Assembly (NCBI RefSeq): GCF_032594935.1
Contig: NZ_CP118734.1
Span: 648,001-712,000, forward strand
Direction: 5' to 3'
From: Streptococcus sp. 29892
GTDB lineage: Bacteria; Bacillota; Bacilli; Lactobacillales; Streptococcaceae
DNA length: 64,000 nucleotides
Below, in pieces: positions 31,539 to 56,533 of this stretch. How positions within the stretch are numbered: the stretch's first letter is position 1; each line of letters opens with the position of its first letter. The position numbers were made by a program, and so were the translations under genes. The notes below the pieces were generated by a model. It had not been told where the DNA came from. It saw only the letters and a list, made by a program, of their open reading frames with translations, and made no database searches.

Positions 31539-31610
31539 CTTCCCTTAGTTAAATGGATATAACAAATTCCTCCTAAGAATTAGTTGCAGGTTCGATTCCT
31601 GCAGGGGAGA
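31539..31610 (+). tRNA. tRNA-Arg (anticodon CCT)
   Basis: The sequence folds as a cloverleaf: acceptor CTTCCCT/AGGGGAG with one G-T pair, D stem GTTA/TAAC, anticodon stem AATTC/GAATT with loop CTCCTAA (anticodon CCT at 31572-31574), and T stem GCAGG/CCTGC with loop TTCGATT. The discriminator is A and CCA is not encoded. It reads AGG codons. Confidence 0.95.
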
Positions 31611-51433: not shown

Positions 51434-51468
51434 AAAATCCATGAATTAGATTTTCATGGATTTTATTT
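51434..51468. terminator. Terminator at the convergent budA and rqcH ends
   Basis: AAAATCCATGAA (51434-51445) pairs with TTCATGGATTTT (51453-51464). The rqcH stop codon lies in the loop. Confidence 0.88.
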
Positions 51469-53104
51469 TGTCTTCAGTTGGGGTGACACGGAGGGTTTTC
51501 TGACCGCGGTAGGTCACAAAACCTGGCTTGCCACCTGTTGGTTTATGGAGCTTCTTGGCTTCAATCATATCGACTTGAACCAAGTTAGAATGTCTAGCCT
51601 TTGAAAAGTAGGCGGCCAACTCCGCCGCATCGGTCTTGACTTCGTCGCTTGGATCCAAGTTGTCTGTGATGACCACATGACTGCCTGGAATGTCTTTGGC
51701 ATGGAACCAGAGTTCGCCTTTCTTGGCCATTTTGAAGGTCAGCTCATCATTTTGCAAGTTATTTTTCCCAACCAGAATAATAGTCTTCCCGTCCGTCGCC
51801 AAGTAAGGCTCAGGTTTCTGGCGTTTATGGATTTTCTCACGGTGGCGGCGTTTGAGGTAGCCTGTTTCAATCAATTCCTCACGGATTTCGTCGATTTCAG
51901 CCAAACTAGCCTGTCCCAGCATGGTGTCAACGGACTCCAGATAGACAATGGTCGCCTTGGTTTCCTCAATCAAGCTGGTCAAGTGCTTGACTGCCTCCTT
52001 GAGTTTCTGGTACTTCTTGAAGTACCGCTGGGCATTCTGACTAGGAGTAAGAGCCACATCCAACTCAATCTCCAACTCCTCTCCCGTATAGTAGTTGTCT
52101 AAGGTCACACTAGCCTGGTCATTTGGCACCTGATGCAGATAGGTGGTCAAGAGCTCACCCTTTTGCCGCACCAACTCCGCACCTTCTGTATCCGCCAATT
52201 CCTGCTCCTGTTTGACCAACTTTTTGCGATTTTTCTCTAGCTCACTGGCCACCCGCTTGATTAGCTCATTGGCTTGCTGGGCCACCCGGTCCCGCTCCGC
52301 CTTGTCCTGATAGTAGAAGTCCAGCAGACTGCTCAGGCTCTCAAAGTGTGGCTGGTTTTCAGGGCTATTGGCAAATGGCAGAGCAGCATAGGCCTTGTCT
52401 GTCAGGCTAGGCTGACTAGCCTGGTCAAAAAAGGCACGGAAGTTCTTCAGGCGGTCCGTCTGCAAGTGACTAGCCAGTTCAGTAGCTGTATCCCGTCCCA
52501 AACCTTGAAAGACCTGTTGGAGATTTTTGGCTGATAAGTCTTGTGTGGATAAGATTTCAAACAATTTCTCGTCAGACACCGTGTAAGGATTGAGAGAATG
52601 CGTTTCCGGTGGACGAATGTAGGTGGAACCTGGCAGGATGGTCCGGTAGGAATTTTGCGAAAATCCAACGTGCTTAATAGCTTCGATAATCCGCTGTTCA
52701 GACTTGTCCACCAAGATGATATTACTGTGCTTGCCCATGATTTCCACAATTAAGGTTGCTTGGATATGGTCGCCAATCTCGTCCTTGTTGGACACCGAAA
52801 ATTCTAAAATGCGGTCATTGTCCAGTTGGCGAATATCCTCGATAATAGCACCCTGCAAGTATTTTCGTAAAATCATGGTAAAGGTATTAGGCACCTTGGG
52901 ATTGGTAAAATCCGACTGGGACAGCTGAACCCGTCCGAAAACAGAGTGGGCAGACAGGAGCAACTTATGGCTCTGGCGGTTGCTGCGGATGTTGAGGACA
53001 ATCTCCTGTTCAAAGGGCTGGTTGATTTTCTGAATCCGCCCGCCTTCTAAATTGGCCTTTAACTCAGCCGTCATGTGATGTAAAAAAAATCCGTCAAAAG
53101 ACAT
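51446..53104 (-). CDS. rqcH: Ribosome quality control protein RqcH / fibronectin-binding protein family
   Basis: The 552-residue protein matches RqcH/PavA (NEMF): MSFDGFFLHHMTAELKANLEGGRI at the N-terminus, a NFACT-N domain, a long coiled coil (about residues 270-420), and a C-terminal NFACT-R domain with ELWFHAKDIPGSHVVI (about 462-477). RqcH adds alanine tails to stalled nascent chains on 50S subunits; streptococcal members were also described as fibronectin-binding adhesins. It lacks a signal peptide. The start follows GAGGAAAACC. Confidence 0.92.
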   Translation of the reverse strand: MSFDGFFLHHMTAELKANLEGGRIQKINQPFEQEIVLNIRSNRQSHKLLLSAHSVFGRVQLSQSDFTNPKVPNTFTMILRKYLQGAIIEDIRQLDNDRILEFSVSNKDEIGDHIQATLIVEIMGKHSNIILVDKSEQRIIEAIKHVGFSQNSYRTILPGSTYIRPPETHSLNPYTVSDEKLFEILSTQDLSAKNLQQVFQGLGRDTATELASHLQTDRLKNFRAFFDQASQPSLTDKAYAALPFANSPENQPHFESLSSLLDFYYQDKAERDRVAQQANELIKRVASELEKNRKKLVKQEQELADTEGAELVRQKGELLTTYLHQVPNDQASVTLDNYYTGEELEIELDVALTPSQNAQRYFKKYQKLKEAVKHLTSLIEETKATIVYLESVDTMLGQASLAEIDEIREELIETGYLKRRHREKIHKRQKPEPYLATDGKTIILVGKNNLQNDELTFKMAKKGELWFHAKDIPGSHVVITDNLDPSDEVKTDAAELAAYFSKARHSNLVQVDMIEAKKLHKPTGGKPGFVTYRGQKTLRVTPTEDKIKSMKI

Positions 53105-53219: not shown

Positions 53220-53248
53220 TTGACAAAGTCTTTGGGATGCCGTATAAT
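53220..53248 (+). promoter_or_regulatory. Consensus promoter of the trpXYZ leader
   Basis: TTGACA (53220-53225), 17-bp spacer, TATAAT (53243-53248): a perfect consensus. Transcription should start near 53255. Confidence 0.93.
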
Positions 53249-53353
53249 CGTCTGTAATCAGAAGAAGTAATAAAGCAGAAGTCTTCAGGGAGCCTGTGGT
53301 GCTGAGAACAGGTGGCGGAGTTTTATGAAATGGGCTGATGTGCATTTATGTCT

Positions 53354-53566
53354 ATTTTATGACGTCGTTAGTCGTGCTTGCCGTACCACCAGTACTGCCT
53401 TCACTCGACTGCCTAGTCCTAAAATGCCCTAAATTCACAAGGATTGTTTGGTATAGCATACTTTGCGTAGACTGTTTTGGCTGAGTACGAGGCAGGTCGA
53501 CGCAGCTTATACTGGCGGTATAGCAAGGAGAGCTAACGAAGTAATCGACCAAAACAGTCACGCAAA
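53354..53566. repeat. BOX-like inverted-repeat element inside the T-box leader
   Basis: The reverse complement of 53354-53425 aligns with 53470-53560: both read GGCAG(G)TCGA, TACTGGyGGTA, GCAAG and CTAACGA, so the element consists of two inverted half-copies. Its right part is also closed by TTTGCGTAGACTGTTTTGG (53462-53480) and CCAAAACAGTCACGCAAA (53549-53566). The CTAACGAAGT motif resembles the boxC part of pneumococcal BOX elements. No protein is encoded. Confidence 0.72.
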
Positions 53567-53687
53567 TGAACTTAAAACAATGATAGTTCGGTCCGCACAC
53601 CTTACAGTGCAACTCCTTGTTAGAGGAGATGAGATATGGGAGGATTCTAGACAATTCCCATAAGTGAGGTGGCACCGTGTCATTGAC

Positions 53688-53725
53688 GCCCTCGCATACT
53701 GTTTTTCAGTATGCGGGGGCTTTTT
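53688..53725 (+). terminator. T-box-controlled terminator
   Basis: GCCCTCGCATACTG (53688-53701), TTTTT loop, CAGTATGCGGGGGC (53707-53720), then TTTTT. Confidence 0.95.
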
Positions 53726-53814
53726 CATTGTCTTGGTAGATTGGCGTTCAAATGAAAAATGAAATACTGATCATTATATTCTACTTTGACAATGATAGAA
53801 ATTACGAGGTAATC

Positions 53815-53859
53815 ATGATGAAACGATGGCGATGGTGGAATAAAATTTTGATGATGTAG
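53815..53859 (+). CDS. Trp-rich leader peptide, 14 codons
   Basis: The ORF reads MMKRWRWWNKILMM and stops at TAG (53857-53859). Three of 14 codons are TGG (53827, 53833, 53836). A Shine-Dalgarno sequence, GAGGT, lies at 53806-53810, within a small inverted repeat ATTAC-GAG-GTAAT. The frame is open upstream to ATG 53752, but that start lacks a ribosome-binding site. It lies after the T-box terminator and 36 nt before trpX, so ribosome pausing at Trp codons could tune trpX expression, as in the Bacillus rtpA leader. Confidence 0.7.
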   Translation: MMKRWRWWNKILMM

Positions 53860-53895
53860 AAATTGGATATTATGTATTTTACGAGGAGAATGAAT

Positions 53896-54897
53896 ATGTT
53901 GAAAAATAAAAACTTACTAGCTACAATTGTTGCCCTTACTGTTATGGTAGTTGCTGCTTTGTTTATGACACAAAAAGAGCAGAGCAATTCATCTACATCA
54001 ACGGAAAAAGTTAAGATTGGGGTTCTTCAGTTCGTAACCCATGATTCACTAGATGAGATTTATAAGGGGATCAAGGATGGACTAAAAGAGGGTGGCTATT
54101 CAACGACGGATAATTTGGACATTGATTTCATGAATGCTGAGGCTGACCAGTCACAGGTGCAGACCATGAGTAAAAAATTGGTGGACAATGGTAATGAACT
54201 CTTAATCGGTATCGCGACACCAGCTGCACAAGGTTTGGCAAACGCAACGACTGAATTGCCAATCATCATGGGTGCGGTAACAGACCCAGTTGGTGCCAAC
54301 TTGGTCAAAGACTTGAAAAATCCTGGTGGGAATATCACTGGTGTGTCTGACCAGACACCAGTAGCAGATGCTGTTTCCCTCATCAAGGAAATCACACCGG
54401 AGGCAAAAACAATCGGCGTCCTCTATTCTTCAAACGAAGACAATTCAAAAATTCAAGTAGCAGAGTTTAAGGCGGCAGCGGAAGAAGCAGGTTATACTGT
54501 CCTTGAATACGCAGTTGCCTCAAGCAATGAATTAGCAGCGACAGTAGAAGTGGCAACTAGCAAAGCAGATGTTCTTTTCACACCAGTTGACAACACAGTC
54601 GCATCAGCATTTTCAACAGTCGTTTCTGTGGCAAATAAAACAAAAACTCCGATTTTCACTAGTGTAGAAGACATGGTCGAAGGTGGAGGTATTGCATCTG
54701 TAACCCTCAGCCAATATGACTTGGGTGTGGCAACAGGAAAAATGGCTGCGAAAATCCTAGACGGTGCAAATCCTGGGGATACACCAGTCCAAATCTTCAA
54801 TGAAGGTACGGTCGTTGTTAACCAGAAAGTTGCAAAAGAATTAGGTATCAGTTTGTCAGAAGAGATTATCAATAAGGCAAGCAAGGTTATCGAATAA
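53896..54897 (+). CDS. trpX: Tryptophan ABC transporter substrate-binding protein
   Basis: The 333-residue protein has an N-terminal hydrophobic segment (about residues 6-24, LLATIVALTVMVVAALFMT) without a lipobox cysteine, then a periplasmic-binding fold of the ABC_sub_bind family (KIGVLQFVTHDSLDEIYKGIKDGL; GNITGVSDQTPVADAVSLI; TPIFTSVEDMVEGGGIASV). ATG 53896 follows GAGGAGAATGAAT. Trp specificity is inferred from the T-box and from streptococcal TrpXYZ; the fold itself does not prove it. Confidence 0.88.
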   Translation: MLKNKNLLATIVALTVMVVAALFMTQKEQSNSSTSTEKVKIGVLQFVTHDSLDEIYKGIKDGLKEGGYSTTDNLDIDFMNAEADQSQVQTMSKKLVDNGNELLIGIATPAAQGLANATTELPIIMGAVTDPVGANLVKDLKNPGGNITGVSDQTPVADAVSLIKEITPEAKTIGVLYSSNEDNSKIQVAEFKAAAEEAGYTVLEYAVASSNELAATVEVATSKADVLFTPVDNTVASAFSTVVSVANKTKTPIFTSVEDMVEGGGIASVTLSQYDLGVATGKMAAKILDGANPGDTPVQIFNEGTVVVNQKVAKELGISLSEEIINKASKVIE

Positions 54898-54911: not shown

Positions 54912-55778
54912 ATGATTGTATCAACAGTTTCACAGGCTCTTTTATGGGCTGTACTAGGAATGGGAATATTCGTCACCTTTCGGATTTTGAATTTCCCGGA
55001 TATGACGACAGAGGGCTCTTTTCCACTGGGAGGAGCAGTTGCAGTAACCTTATTGACACAGGGAGTTCATCCTGTCTTGGCAACGCTGGCAGCCGTTTTG
55101 GCAGGCTGTTTGGCAGGTTTGGTCACAGGCTTGCTCTATACCAAGGGGAAAATCCCTACACTTTTAGCTGGTATTCTGGTCATGTCTTCTTGTCACTCCA
55201 TTATTCTCTTTATCATGGGTCGGGCAAATTTGGGTTTGTTAAATACCAGTCGATTGCAGGACTTGCTTCCCTTTTCTGAGCAAGTGAATGGACTTTTACT
55301 TGGTTTGGGAAGTGTTGCCCTAGTCATTGGATCCTTGATGTTCTTCCTCTATACTCGCCTGGGTCAAGCCTTTATCGCGACGGGGGACAATCCAGATATG
55401 GCTCGCAGTTTTGGTATCAATACCAGCAGAATGGAGCTGCTTGGGTTGATTCTTTCTAATGGGATTATTGCTCTTGCGGGTGCCTTGATTGCTCAACAAG
55501 AAGGTTATGCGGATGTATCCCGTGGTATCGGGGTCATCGTAGTTGGGATGGCTAGCTTGATTATCGGTGAGGTCTTGTATGGAAATTTGACCATGTTGGA
55601 ACGGTTCTTGGCCATTGCAGTAGGTGCTATCTTCTATCAGTTCTTGATTTTGGTGGTTATTTCCCTCGGTATCAATACCAGCTACCTCCGTATCTTCTCA
55701 GCCATGATTTTGGCAGTCTGCCTCATGGTTCCTGAGTTGAAAAATAAAGTCTTGAAAGGAGCCAGCCTGTCACGATGA
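54912..55778 (+). CDS. trpY: Tryptophan ABC transporter permease
   Basis: The 288-residue membrane protein has about eight hydrophobic segments and resembles the branched-chain permease family (LLWAVLGMGIFVTFRILNFPDMTTEGSFPLGGAV; a GDNPDMARSFGINTSRMELLGLILSNGI EAA-like loop at about residues 157-184). It starts 14 nt after trpX and overlaps trpZ by 4 nt, so the three genes form one operon. Confidence 0.88.
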   Translation: MIVSTVSQALLWAVLGMGIFVTFRILNFPDMTTEGSFPLGGAVAVTLLTQGVHPVLATLAAVLAGCLAGLVTGLLYTKGKIPTLLAGILVMSSCHSIILFIMGRANLGLLNTSRLQDLLPFSEQVNGLLLGLGSVALVIGSLMFFLYTRLGQAFIATGDNPDMARSFGINTSRMELLGLILSNGIIALAGALIAQQEGYADVSRGIGVIVVGMASLIIGEVLYGNLTMLERFLAIAVGAIFYQFLILVVISLGINTSYLRIFSAMILAVCLMVPELKNKVLKGASLSR

Positions 55779-56533
55779 AAGCAATTGTTGAATTAAAAAA
55801 TGCCACCAAGGTGGTGACCAACGGTTTTGATGAAGAGCGCGTGATTTTGGACAATGTCAATTTGACCATCTACCAAGGGGATTTTATTACTATTTTAGGT
55901 GGAAACGGTGCTGGGAAATCAACCCTCTTCAATGTCATTGCTGGTACCCTGCCCTTGACAAGTGGTTCGGTCCACATACTCGGTGAGGATGTGACCAACT
56001 GGCCTGCTGAAAAACGGGCCAAGTATCTGGCTCGTGTCTTCCAAGATCCTAAAATGGGAACTGCTCCGCGGATGACAGTGGCAGAAAACATGCTCATCGC
56101 CAAGTATCGTGGTGAGGGGCGGGGCTTGGTGCCACGTAGATTGGTCCAAGAAAGGGAAGAATTTGCCCAGCTTTTGCCGAGAGTGGGAAATGGTTTGGAA
56201 AAGCATTTGGACACACCAGCAGGGCTTTTATCAGGTGGGCAAAGACAGGCCTTGAGTTTGTTAATGGCTAGCTTGAAACAACCAGAGCTCTTGCTCTTGG
56301 ACGAGCATACTGCCGCTCTCGACCCTAAAACTAGCCAATCCTTAATGCAACTGACGGATGAATTGATTGCGACCAAGGGAATGACAGCCCTCATGGTCAC
56401 TCATCAGATGGAAGATGCTCTTCGCCATGGCAATCGCCTGATTGTTATGAAGAATGGTCAGATTATCCAAGACCAAACGACTGAAGAGAAATCCAAGATG
56501 AAGCTGGAAGATTATTATAAGTTGTTTGACTAA
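55775..56533 (+). CDS. trpZ: Tryptophan ABC transporter ATP-binding protein
   Basis: The 252-residue ATPase has Walker A GGNGAGKST (about residues 42-50), the signature LLSGGQRQALS (about 147-157), Walker B LLLLDEHTAALDP (about 168-180) and the His switch VTHQ (about 208). It powers uptake through TrpY. ATGA overlap with trpY. A terminator follows at its stop codon. Confidence 0.9.
   Translation: MKAIVELKNATKVVTNGFDEERVILDNVNLTIYQGDFITILGGNGAGKSTLFNVIAGTLPLTSGSVHILGEDVTNWPAEKRAKYLARVFQDPKMGTAPRMTVAENMLIAKYRGEGRGLVPRRLVQEREEFAQLLPRVGNGLEKHLDTPAGLLSGGQRQALSLLMASLKQPELLLLDEHTAALDPKTSQSLMQLTDELIATKGMTALMVTHQMEDALRHGNRLIVMKNGQIIQDQTTEEKSKMKLEDYYKLFD

Follow-up and report, generated by a model that had tools for sequence, protein, structure and literature searches.

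In the trpL-type attenuators of Escherichia coli, the position of the ribosome at tryptophan (Trp) codons serves as the sensor, and in Bacillus rtpA, a short open reading frame (ORF) with Trp codons follows the T-box, a combination of T-box and Trp leader peptide that was reportedly described by Chen and Yanofsky in 2003 and 2004. Occlusion of the rtpA type requires that the leader stop adjoin the Shine-Dalgarno (SD) sequence of the gene. To our knowledge, tandem sensing by a T-box and a leader peptide is otherwise known only from Bacillus rtpA. Both the transcription and the translation of the Bacillus subtilis rtpA gene, which encodes anti-TRAP, respond to uncharged tRNA-Trp (PMC11255114, PMC4027176; these and the other articles are cited here from the part of their text that was available). 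In Streptococcus pneumoniae, the available text of PMC8546594 reports no obvious homolog of TrpL or TRAP. In Streptococcus suis strain 10, a T-box riboswitch upstream of trpX has been demonstrated experimentally, with mutants, along with its response to Trp, the promoter and a transcript start that 5' RACE places 676 nt ahead of trpX (PMC9382623).

We analyzed a 64,000-nucleotide stretch of the genome of Streptococcus sp. 29892 (the window, in what follows), which contains the same leader region and operon as those described in PMC9382623. In the available text of that article, the stretch behind the terminator is taken as a 5' untranslated region and a leader ORF goes unmentioned. This stretch carries a short conserved ORF with the core Lys-Arg-Trp (the KRW leader), so that what was published as the trpX '5' untranslated region' probably undergoes translation and the reporter results on that region need rereading. 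As in rtpA, a tRNA-Trp T-box is followed by a short Trp-codon ORF, located between the terminator and the gene. Unlike in rtpA, the leader precedes genes of uptake and biosynthesis rather than anti-TRAP, its KRW core includes CGA and often the only Trp codon, and its stop lies either far from the gene or overlaps it; the control of translation is putative here. A ribosome at Trp codons would be the sensor, as in the trpL type, whereas the terminator is located upstream, under the control of the T-box, and in the window no terminator was seen in the stretch from the leader to trpX, for which folding gives no stable structure on average.

No description of the KRW leader was found in the available text of the literature searched, most subscription papers being outside its reach. 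We rate the S. suis T-box as known and the conserved KRW leader as new, in the form of a variant of tandem T-box/leader-peptide control. Tandem sensing at these loci would be a recurrent, strongly conserved module on genes for Trp uptake and biosynthesis, with an unexplained core and a fixed CGA codon, an uncommon one for Arg, and it raises a question that can be tested in lactic acid bacteria, namely, why the same tRNA is read twice and how a ribosome stalled 50 nt upstream helps.

The T-box and the leader ORF in the window

The regulatory region is on the forward strand of the window and starts with a sigma-70-type promoter (53220-53248), with TTGACA at 53220-53225 and TATAAT at 53243-53248 as read from the sequence. 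The tRNA-Trp T-box leader, the function of which has been published (PMC9382623), spans 53244-53696 from Stem I to the antiterminator and matches Rfam family RF00230 with 65.9 bits (E 6.6e-14), under the gathering score of 93. Stem I with the specifier, the UGGN antiterminator bulge and the terminator are all present. Both the sequence and the alignment to RF00230 place the UGG specifier codon at 53331-53333, where a preliminary description of this locus had seen it, and the acceptor-pairing motif UGGC of the T-box bulge at 53670-53673; the motif itself had been recognized in that description, with a position (53671) off by one. The intrinsic terminator (53688-53725) reads as a 14-bp stem, with the arms at 53688-53701 and 53707-53720, and a T-run at 53721-53725; a 3' end was mapped by cRACE in strain 10 (PMC9382623).

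The T-box is enlarged by a long, near-perfect inverted repeat with arms of about 20 bp (53462-53565), and this extra palindromic stem may be the reason for the score below gathering. The possibility that the segment containing the palindrome (53440-53580) is a repeated mobile element was ruled out because it is present in a single genome copy. At the gathering score, RF00230 matched one of 12 loci (L026), with several of the 12 sequences being partial, and at E <= 0.001, it matched six of nine loci, none of them at gathering, with L291, L235 and L344 unmatched.

The trpX SD, GAGGAG (53883-53888), precedes trpX (53896-54897), which encodes the substrate-binding protein of the tryptophan ABC transporter (NF041285 equivalog, 454.6 bits with the cut-off of 390) and is followed on the same strand by trpY, encoding the permease (54912-55778; PF02653), and trpZ, encoding the ATPase (55775-56533; PF00005). 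The TrpX protein of the window is 92-99% identical to TrpX of many S. suis contigs, which assigns the window to S. suis or a close relative of it. TrpX contains no Trp residues, and TrpY and TrpZ contain one each, a scarcity that suits genes made under Trp starvation. The divergent neighbor of the T-box (51446-53104, reverse strand) belongs to the RqcH/fibronectin-binding family, a ribosome-rescue relative, with matches below the cut-offs of the models.

Between the terminator and trpX lies the 14-codon leader ORF, MMKRWRWWNKILMM, with the stop codon TAG (53815-53859, forward strand), preceded by its own SD, GAGGT (53806-53810, with GAGG at 53806-53809). The core AAA CGA TGG (Lys-Arg-Trp), which is conserved in the leaders compared, occupies 53821-53829, and two more TGG codons, found only in the S. 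suis clade, follow at 53833-53838. All these parts, the ORF with its SD, the three TGG codons and trpX behind them, had been correctly listed in the preliminary description. For comparison with other leaders, the second ATG (53818) was taken as the start. The ATTAC-GAG-GTAAT mini-hairpin that had been singled out at the SD exists in the window, yet it is present in only two of the 15 loci with GAGGTAAT and was dropped as a feature. The stretch between the terminator and the leader (53729-53800 in the window) differs among S. suis-type strains (L003-L014).

Conservation and codon choice across Streptococcus

A TrpX match was found in 145 of 147 Streptococcus genomes, and for every one of these, the sequence preceding its best match was compared. 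The T-box was called by the core GGTGGNACC alone, within 450 nt, and was present in 107 of the 145 genomes; given this way of calling, the 38 'T-box-less' loci may include divergent T-boxes. A short, SD-led ORF with the motif K-R-W-(R/H) was identified in 101 of the 107 loci with the T-box core (R-R-W-R in one of the 101), and no KRW motif was detected upstream of trpX in the 38 genomes without the core. The six loci that have the core and no leader are G026, G021, G090, G036, G073 and G098. Among the named loci (20 of 22, with two from Christensenella left out), the leader is present in all 17 with the T-box core and in none of the three without it.

A chance ORF is ruled out by simulation: among 30300 spacers of matched dinucleotide composition, the motif appeared in 14 and, together with an in-frame start and an SD, in one, compared with 101 of the 107 real loci. 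An SD-like match precedes 100 of the 101 Streptococcus leaders. When the closest ATG behind an SD was taken regardless of frame, it was in frame with the leader in 94, out of frame in six and absent in one. These sequence features strongly indicate that the leader is translated.

The combination of a T-box with a Trp-codon leader that had been put forward for this single streptococcal transporter is therefore real and conserved, and it extends far beyond that transporter; the loss of the TGG codon or of the frame, named in advance as evidence against it, was looked for across Streptococcus, and both are conserved. What did not survive is 'Trp-rich' as the defining trait, because 85 of the 101 leaders contain one Trp codon, five contain two, and three are present only in 11, those of the S. 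suis clade. The leaders vary from 7 to 25 residues, with a tail that is not constant; the constant part is Lys-Arg-Trp, with Trp at residue 4-6.

The codons of the core are nearly fixed, with AAA in 96 and CGA in 100 of the 101 leaders; in the long ORFs of the window, CGA accounts for 87 of the 731 Arg codons. On a tree built from the T-box and trpX DNA, the wobble position changed twice in the Lys codon, once in the Arg codon and eight times in the next codon. The pattern by which the leaders were picked demanded KRW followed by a codon beginning with C, which makes the invariance of the first and second positions partly a product of the selection, whereas the wobble counts are unaffected. 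The codon-phased changes thus favor translation combined with an extra requirement for CGA. In the genome of the window, the tRNA-Arg genes identified have the anticodons ACG, TCT, CCG and CCT, and accordingly, CGA should be decoded by inosine-34 through a purine-purine (I:A) wobble; the gene with the CCT anticodon is in the window (31539-31610). Slow decoding of CGA and P-site effects have been described (PMC10454642, PMC11805395), and we infer that CGA primes the stall at UGG. Arrest of the +X+ type (Arg-Trp-Arg) was rejected as a rule because the residue after Trp is His, Gln or a stop in some leaders.

Leaders before other genes and beyond Streptococcus

A search of 395 Lactobacillales genomes with an order-wide pattern (T-box core, ATG, AARCGNTGG) yielded matches in 60 genomes, with three control matches. 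In one family, f9, which is probably Lactobacillaceae, this pattern identified eight real leaders in six genomes; eight candidates outside Streptococcus and f9 (L280-L286 and L293) look like chance on inspection. Altogether, f9 has 13 leaders in nine genomes, located before trpD (6), trpE (4), trpB (1) and the gene for an oppA-like binding protein (2). CGA is used in all 13, though any CGN codon would have satisfied the patterns, and an SD-led ATG is in frame in every one of them, though the patterns set no frame. A profile check of nine downstream genes from f9 and the one from the streptococcal locus L235 returned six trpD, one trpE, two trpB and one oppA-like gene. The other three f9 trpE genes match TIGR00564, with f9 trpE scores of 377-418 bits, below the curated cut-off of 517.7; the oppA-like gene of L245 is under its profile cut-offs, and L247 was outside the profile check. 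UGG specifiers are readable in three T-box alignments of these leaders.

One streptococcus has a second KRW leader, before trpB (L235), where the trpB frame is broken near its start at a T run (677-720). At another locus (L374, 288-450), a transposase-like ORF comes no more than about 300 nt after a T-box-like core and its KRW leader, MKKTNTKRWRLMKI; trpX of that streptococcus is without the T-box core.

The streptococcal trpE genes (matched above the family cut-off in 52 genomes) show that the leader does not simply come with every Trp T-box: the T-box core is present in all 30 loci fetched, and none of the 30 carries a KRW leader. At L310 and L312, a short ORF that by eye resembles chorismate mutase lies between the T-box and trpE. 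For f9 trpE, 66 genomes were searched and six full-length loci were obtained, of which four have both the T-box core and the leader and two have neither.

A pattern search for KRW N-termini outside Streptococcus (30 loci) produced, among the matches listed, ordinary proteins or chance hits. Class-wide, a loose pattern was too noisy and was left out of the results, and a strict one matched 42 of 398 genomes. Outside Lactobacillales, none of the seven T-box-like matches (L358, L361, L363, L364, L366, L375 and L376) precedes a trp gene, and, judged by their letters, the remaining matches do not resemble T-boxes.

A putative second layer of tryptophan control

The distance from the Trp codon to trpX is 51-78 nt in 89 of the 101 Streptococcus leaders, and the corresponding distance to the gene is 50-73 nt in the 13 leaders of f9. 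The leader stop is 27-56 nt from the trpX ATG in 85 of the 101 and 116-172 nt from it in 12, so that the distance between leader and trpX is not strict; in f9, its position varies between 55 nt upstream and 101 nt downstream of the gene start and is past the start in five of the 13. The positioned element seems to be the stall site. The stretch from the leader to trpX is about 100 nt longer in some streptococci that are not of the S. suis type.

Folding was assessed for the leader-to-trpX stretch, in leaders within 100 nt of trpX. Compared with shuffled sequences, the mean z-score is -0.41 for 86 distinct sequences, with single cases down to -3.58, and the predicted probability that the trpX SD is unpaired averages 0.85 for 84 sequences, with 6% under 0.5. 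Because the stretch on average folds like shuffled sequence and the SD is mostly open, a switch by hairpins is unlikely to apply generally; a hairpin that hides the trpX SD was likewise ruled out as a rule in this mostly unstructured region, some sequences of which have z-scores of -2 to -3.6. In the window, no terminator was seen between the leader and trpX, nor was the combination of mutually exclusive hairpins with a terminator behind the leader that characterizes attenuators.

The leader is conserved, in frame and biased in codon use. With about even confidence, we propose that these features reflect two-layer control, whereby the T-box is followed by stalling at the Trp codon of the leader as a second sensor; both the stalling and the direction in which it would act on trpX are inferred. 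These cells would thus probably check their Trp supply twice. In the first layer, as described in S. suis, uncharged tRNA-Trp on the T-box lets RNA polymerase past the terminator (PMC9382623). In the second layer, the leader SD would load ribosomes, which would reach CGA-UGG within codons 3-9. A shortage of charged tRNA-Trp would halt the ribosome with its A site on UGG while its P site holds the tRNA that reads CGA by inosine-34 through the I:A wobble, an arrangement that would probably slow decoding in the A site. The stalled ribosome would cover the start of the leader itself, about 50-78 nt before the gene in most loci, and would stop further ribosomes from translating into the ribosome-binding site of the gene or terminating near it, so that this site would stay free; the parked ribosome may also shield the mRNA. 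With ample Trp, the ribosomes on the leader would run on and pass through this site or end near it. The net effect would be higher expression when Trp is short, in the same direction as that of the T-box.

Several observations speak against a second sensor. The leader is absent from all 30 streptococcal trpE T-box loci and from six of the 107 at trpX, and thus is dispensable in some settings, and one Trp codon is a weak sensor. When the T-box was wholly deleted from an S. suis promoter/5'-UTR reporter, expression became independent of Trp, and GFP was lower when Trp was low (PMC9382623); if the leader was kept in this T-box-less reporter, it added no strong or visible positive response under those conditions. 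The motif strings searched for do not occur in the main text of a pneumococcal Ribo-RET paper, an absence that may reflect a medium in which the operon stays off. With greater reserve, we suggest that 'KRW leaders' could be a class in Lactobacillales, a ribosome-borne sensor of tRNA-Trp charging that would use CGA-UGG at a near-fixed distance before Trp-acquisition genes, behind a Trp T-box, and would act through the stall and not through the position of termination.

A different role, which we regard as unlikely although it comes closest among the alternatives, is stabilization of the mRNA: the transcript would be cut near the terminator after read-through, and a ribosome parked on the leader would block 5'-to-3' decay of the trpXYZ mRNA. 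This would require no RNA fold and would fit the usual location of the leader right behind the terminator (66-86 nt from the T-box core to the leader start in 77 of the 101) and the tolerance of long leader-trpX spacers in 12; however, 148-298 nt separate the leader from the T-box core in all but one of the 15 loci of the S. suis type (those with GAGGTAAT), streptococcal trpE mRNAs manage without a leader, and we know of no processing site. Pneumococcal T-box RNAs are substrates of RNase Y and PNPase (PMC8546594), which is also in line with stabilization.

Occlusion of the rtpA type, by which a ribosome terminating at the leader stop masks the SD of the gene unless it is stalled upstream on Trp codons, has the order of parts on its side, which is the same as in Bacillus rtpA (PMC11255114, PMC4027176). 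The spacing makes it improbable. In the window, 23 nt separate the leader stop from the trpX SD, which bears out the doubt raised in the preliminary description. In ten of the 101 leaders, the stop is either no more than 31 nt from trpX or beyond the trpX start, but 79 stop 35-63 nt from the ATG and 12 are farther away, and the overlap in five of the 13 f9 leaders is also at odds with masking. With a spacing this long and variable, the rtpA mechanism is unsupported.

Stalling could also have the opposite sign from that in the two-layer reading and act as a brake under severe starvation, when the stalled ribosome would lower expression, for example, by blocking re-initiation at trpX. We consider this no more probable than occlusion: leader stops are at a plausible distance for re-initiation, and the T-box-less reporter did give less GFP at low Trp, but the authors attribute this decrease to limited Trp (PMC9382623), and retention of the leader on Trp-acquisition genes would suggest a helpful role in starvation.

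Finally, it is very improbable that the conserved letters act as RNA, as a binding site for a protein, an sRNA or a tRNA end, and not as codons, because, although AAACGATGG is near-invariant in nucleotides, including the synonymous choice of CGA, and UGGC fits the 3' end of the tRNA, like the T-box motif, the changes are phased by codon, with wobble changes (AAG, CGT) occurring and the next wobble free, all 13 f9 leaders have the SD and in-frame ATG, and UGGU at L287 shows that UGGC is not required, which rules it out as another site for the tRNA end.

The AUG within CGAUGG was considered as the start of a coupling ORF and is not taken as a function, given that this ORF ends within 10 nt of trpX in only four of 98 Streptococcus leaders. 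At L241, L242, L245, L246, L247 and L288, an ORF in the +1 frame begins at this AUG and runs up to the ATGA at which trpD, trpE or the oppA-like gene starts, an arrangement that we keep as unexplained. Such an ending on the ATGA of the gene is found in five of the 13 f9 leaders, or in six if the gene start at L242 is the ATG 15 nt farther on.
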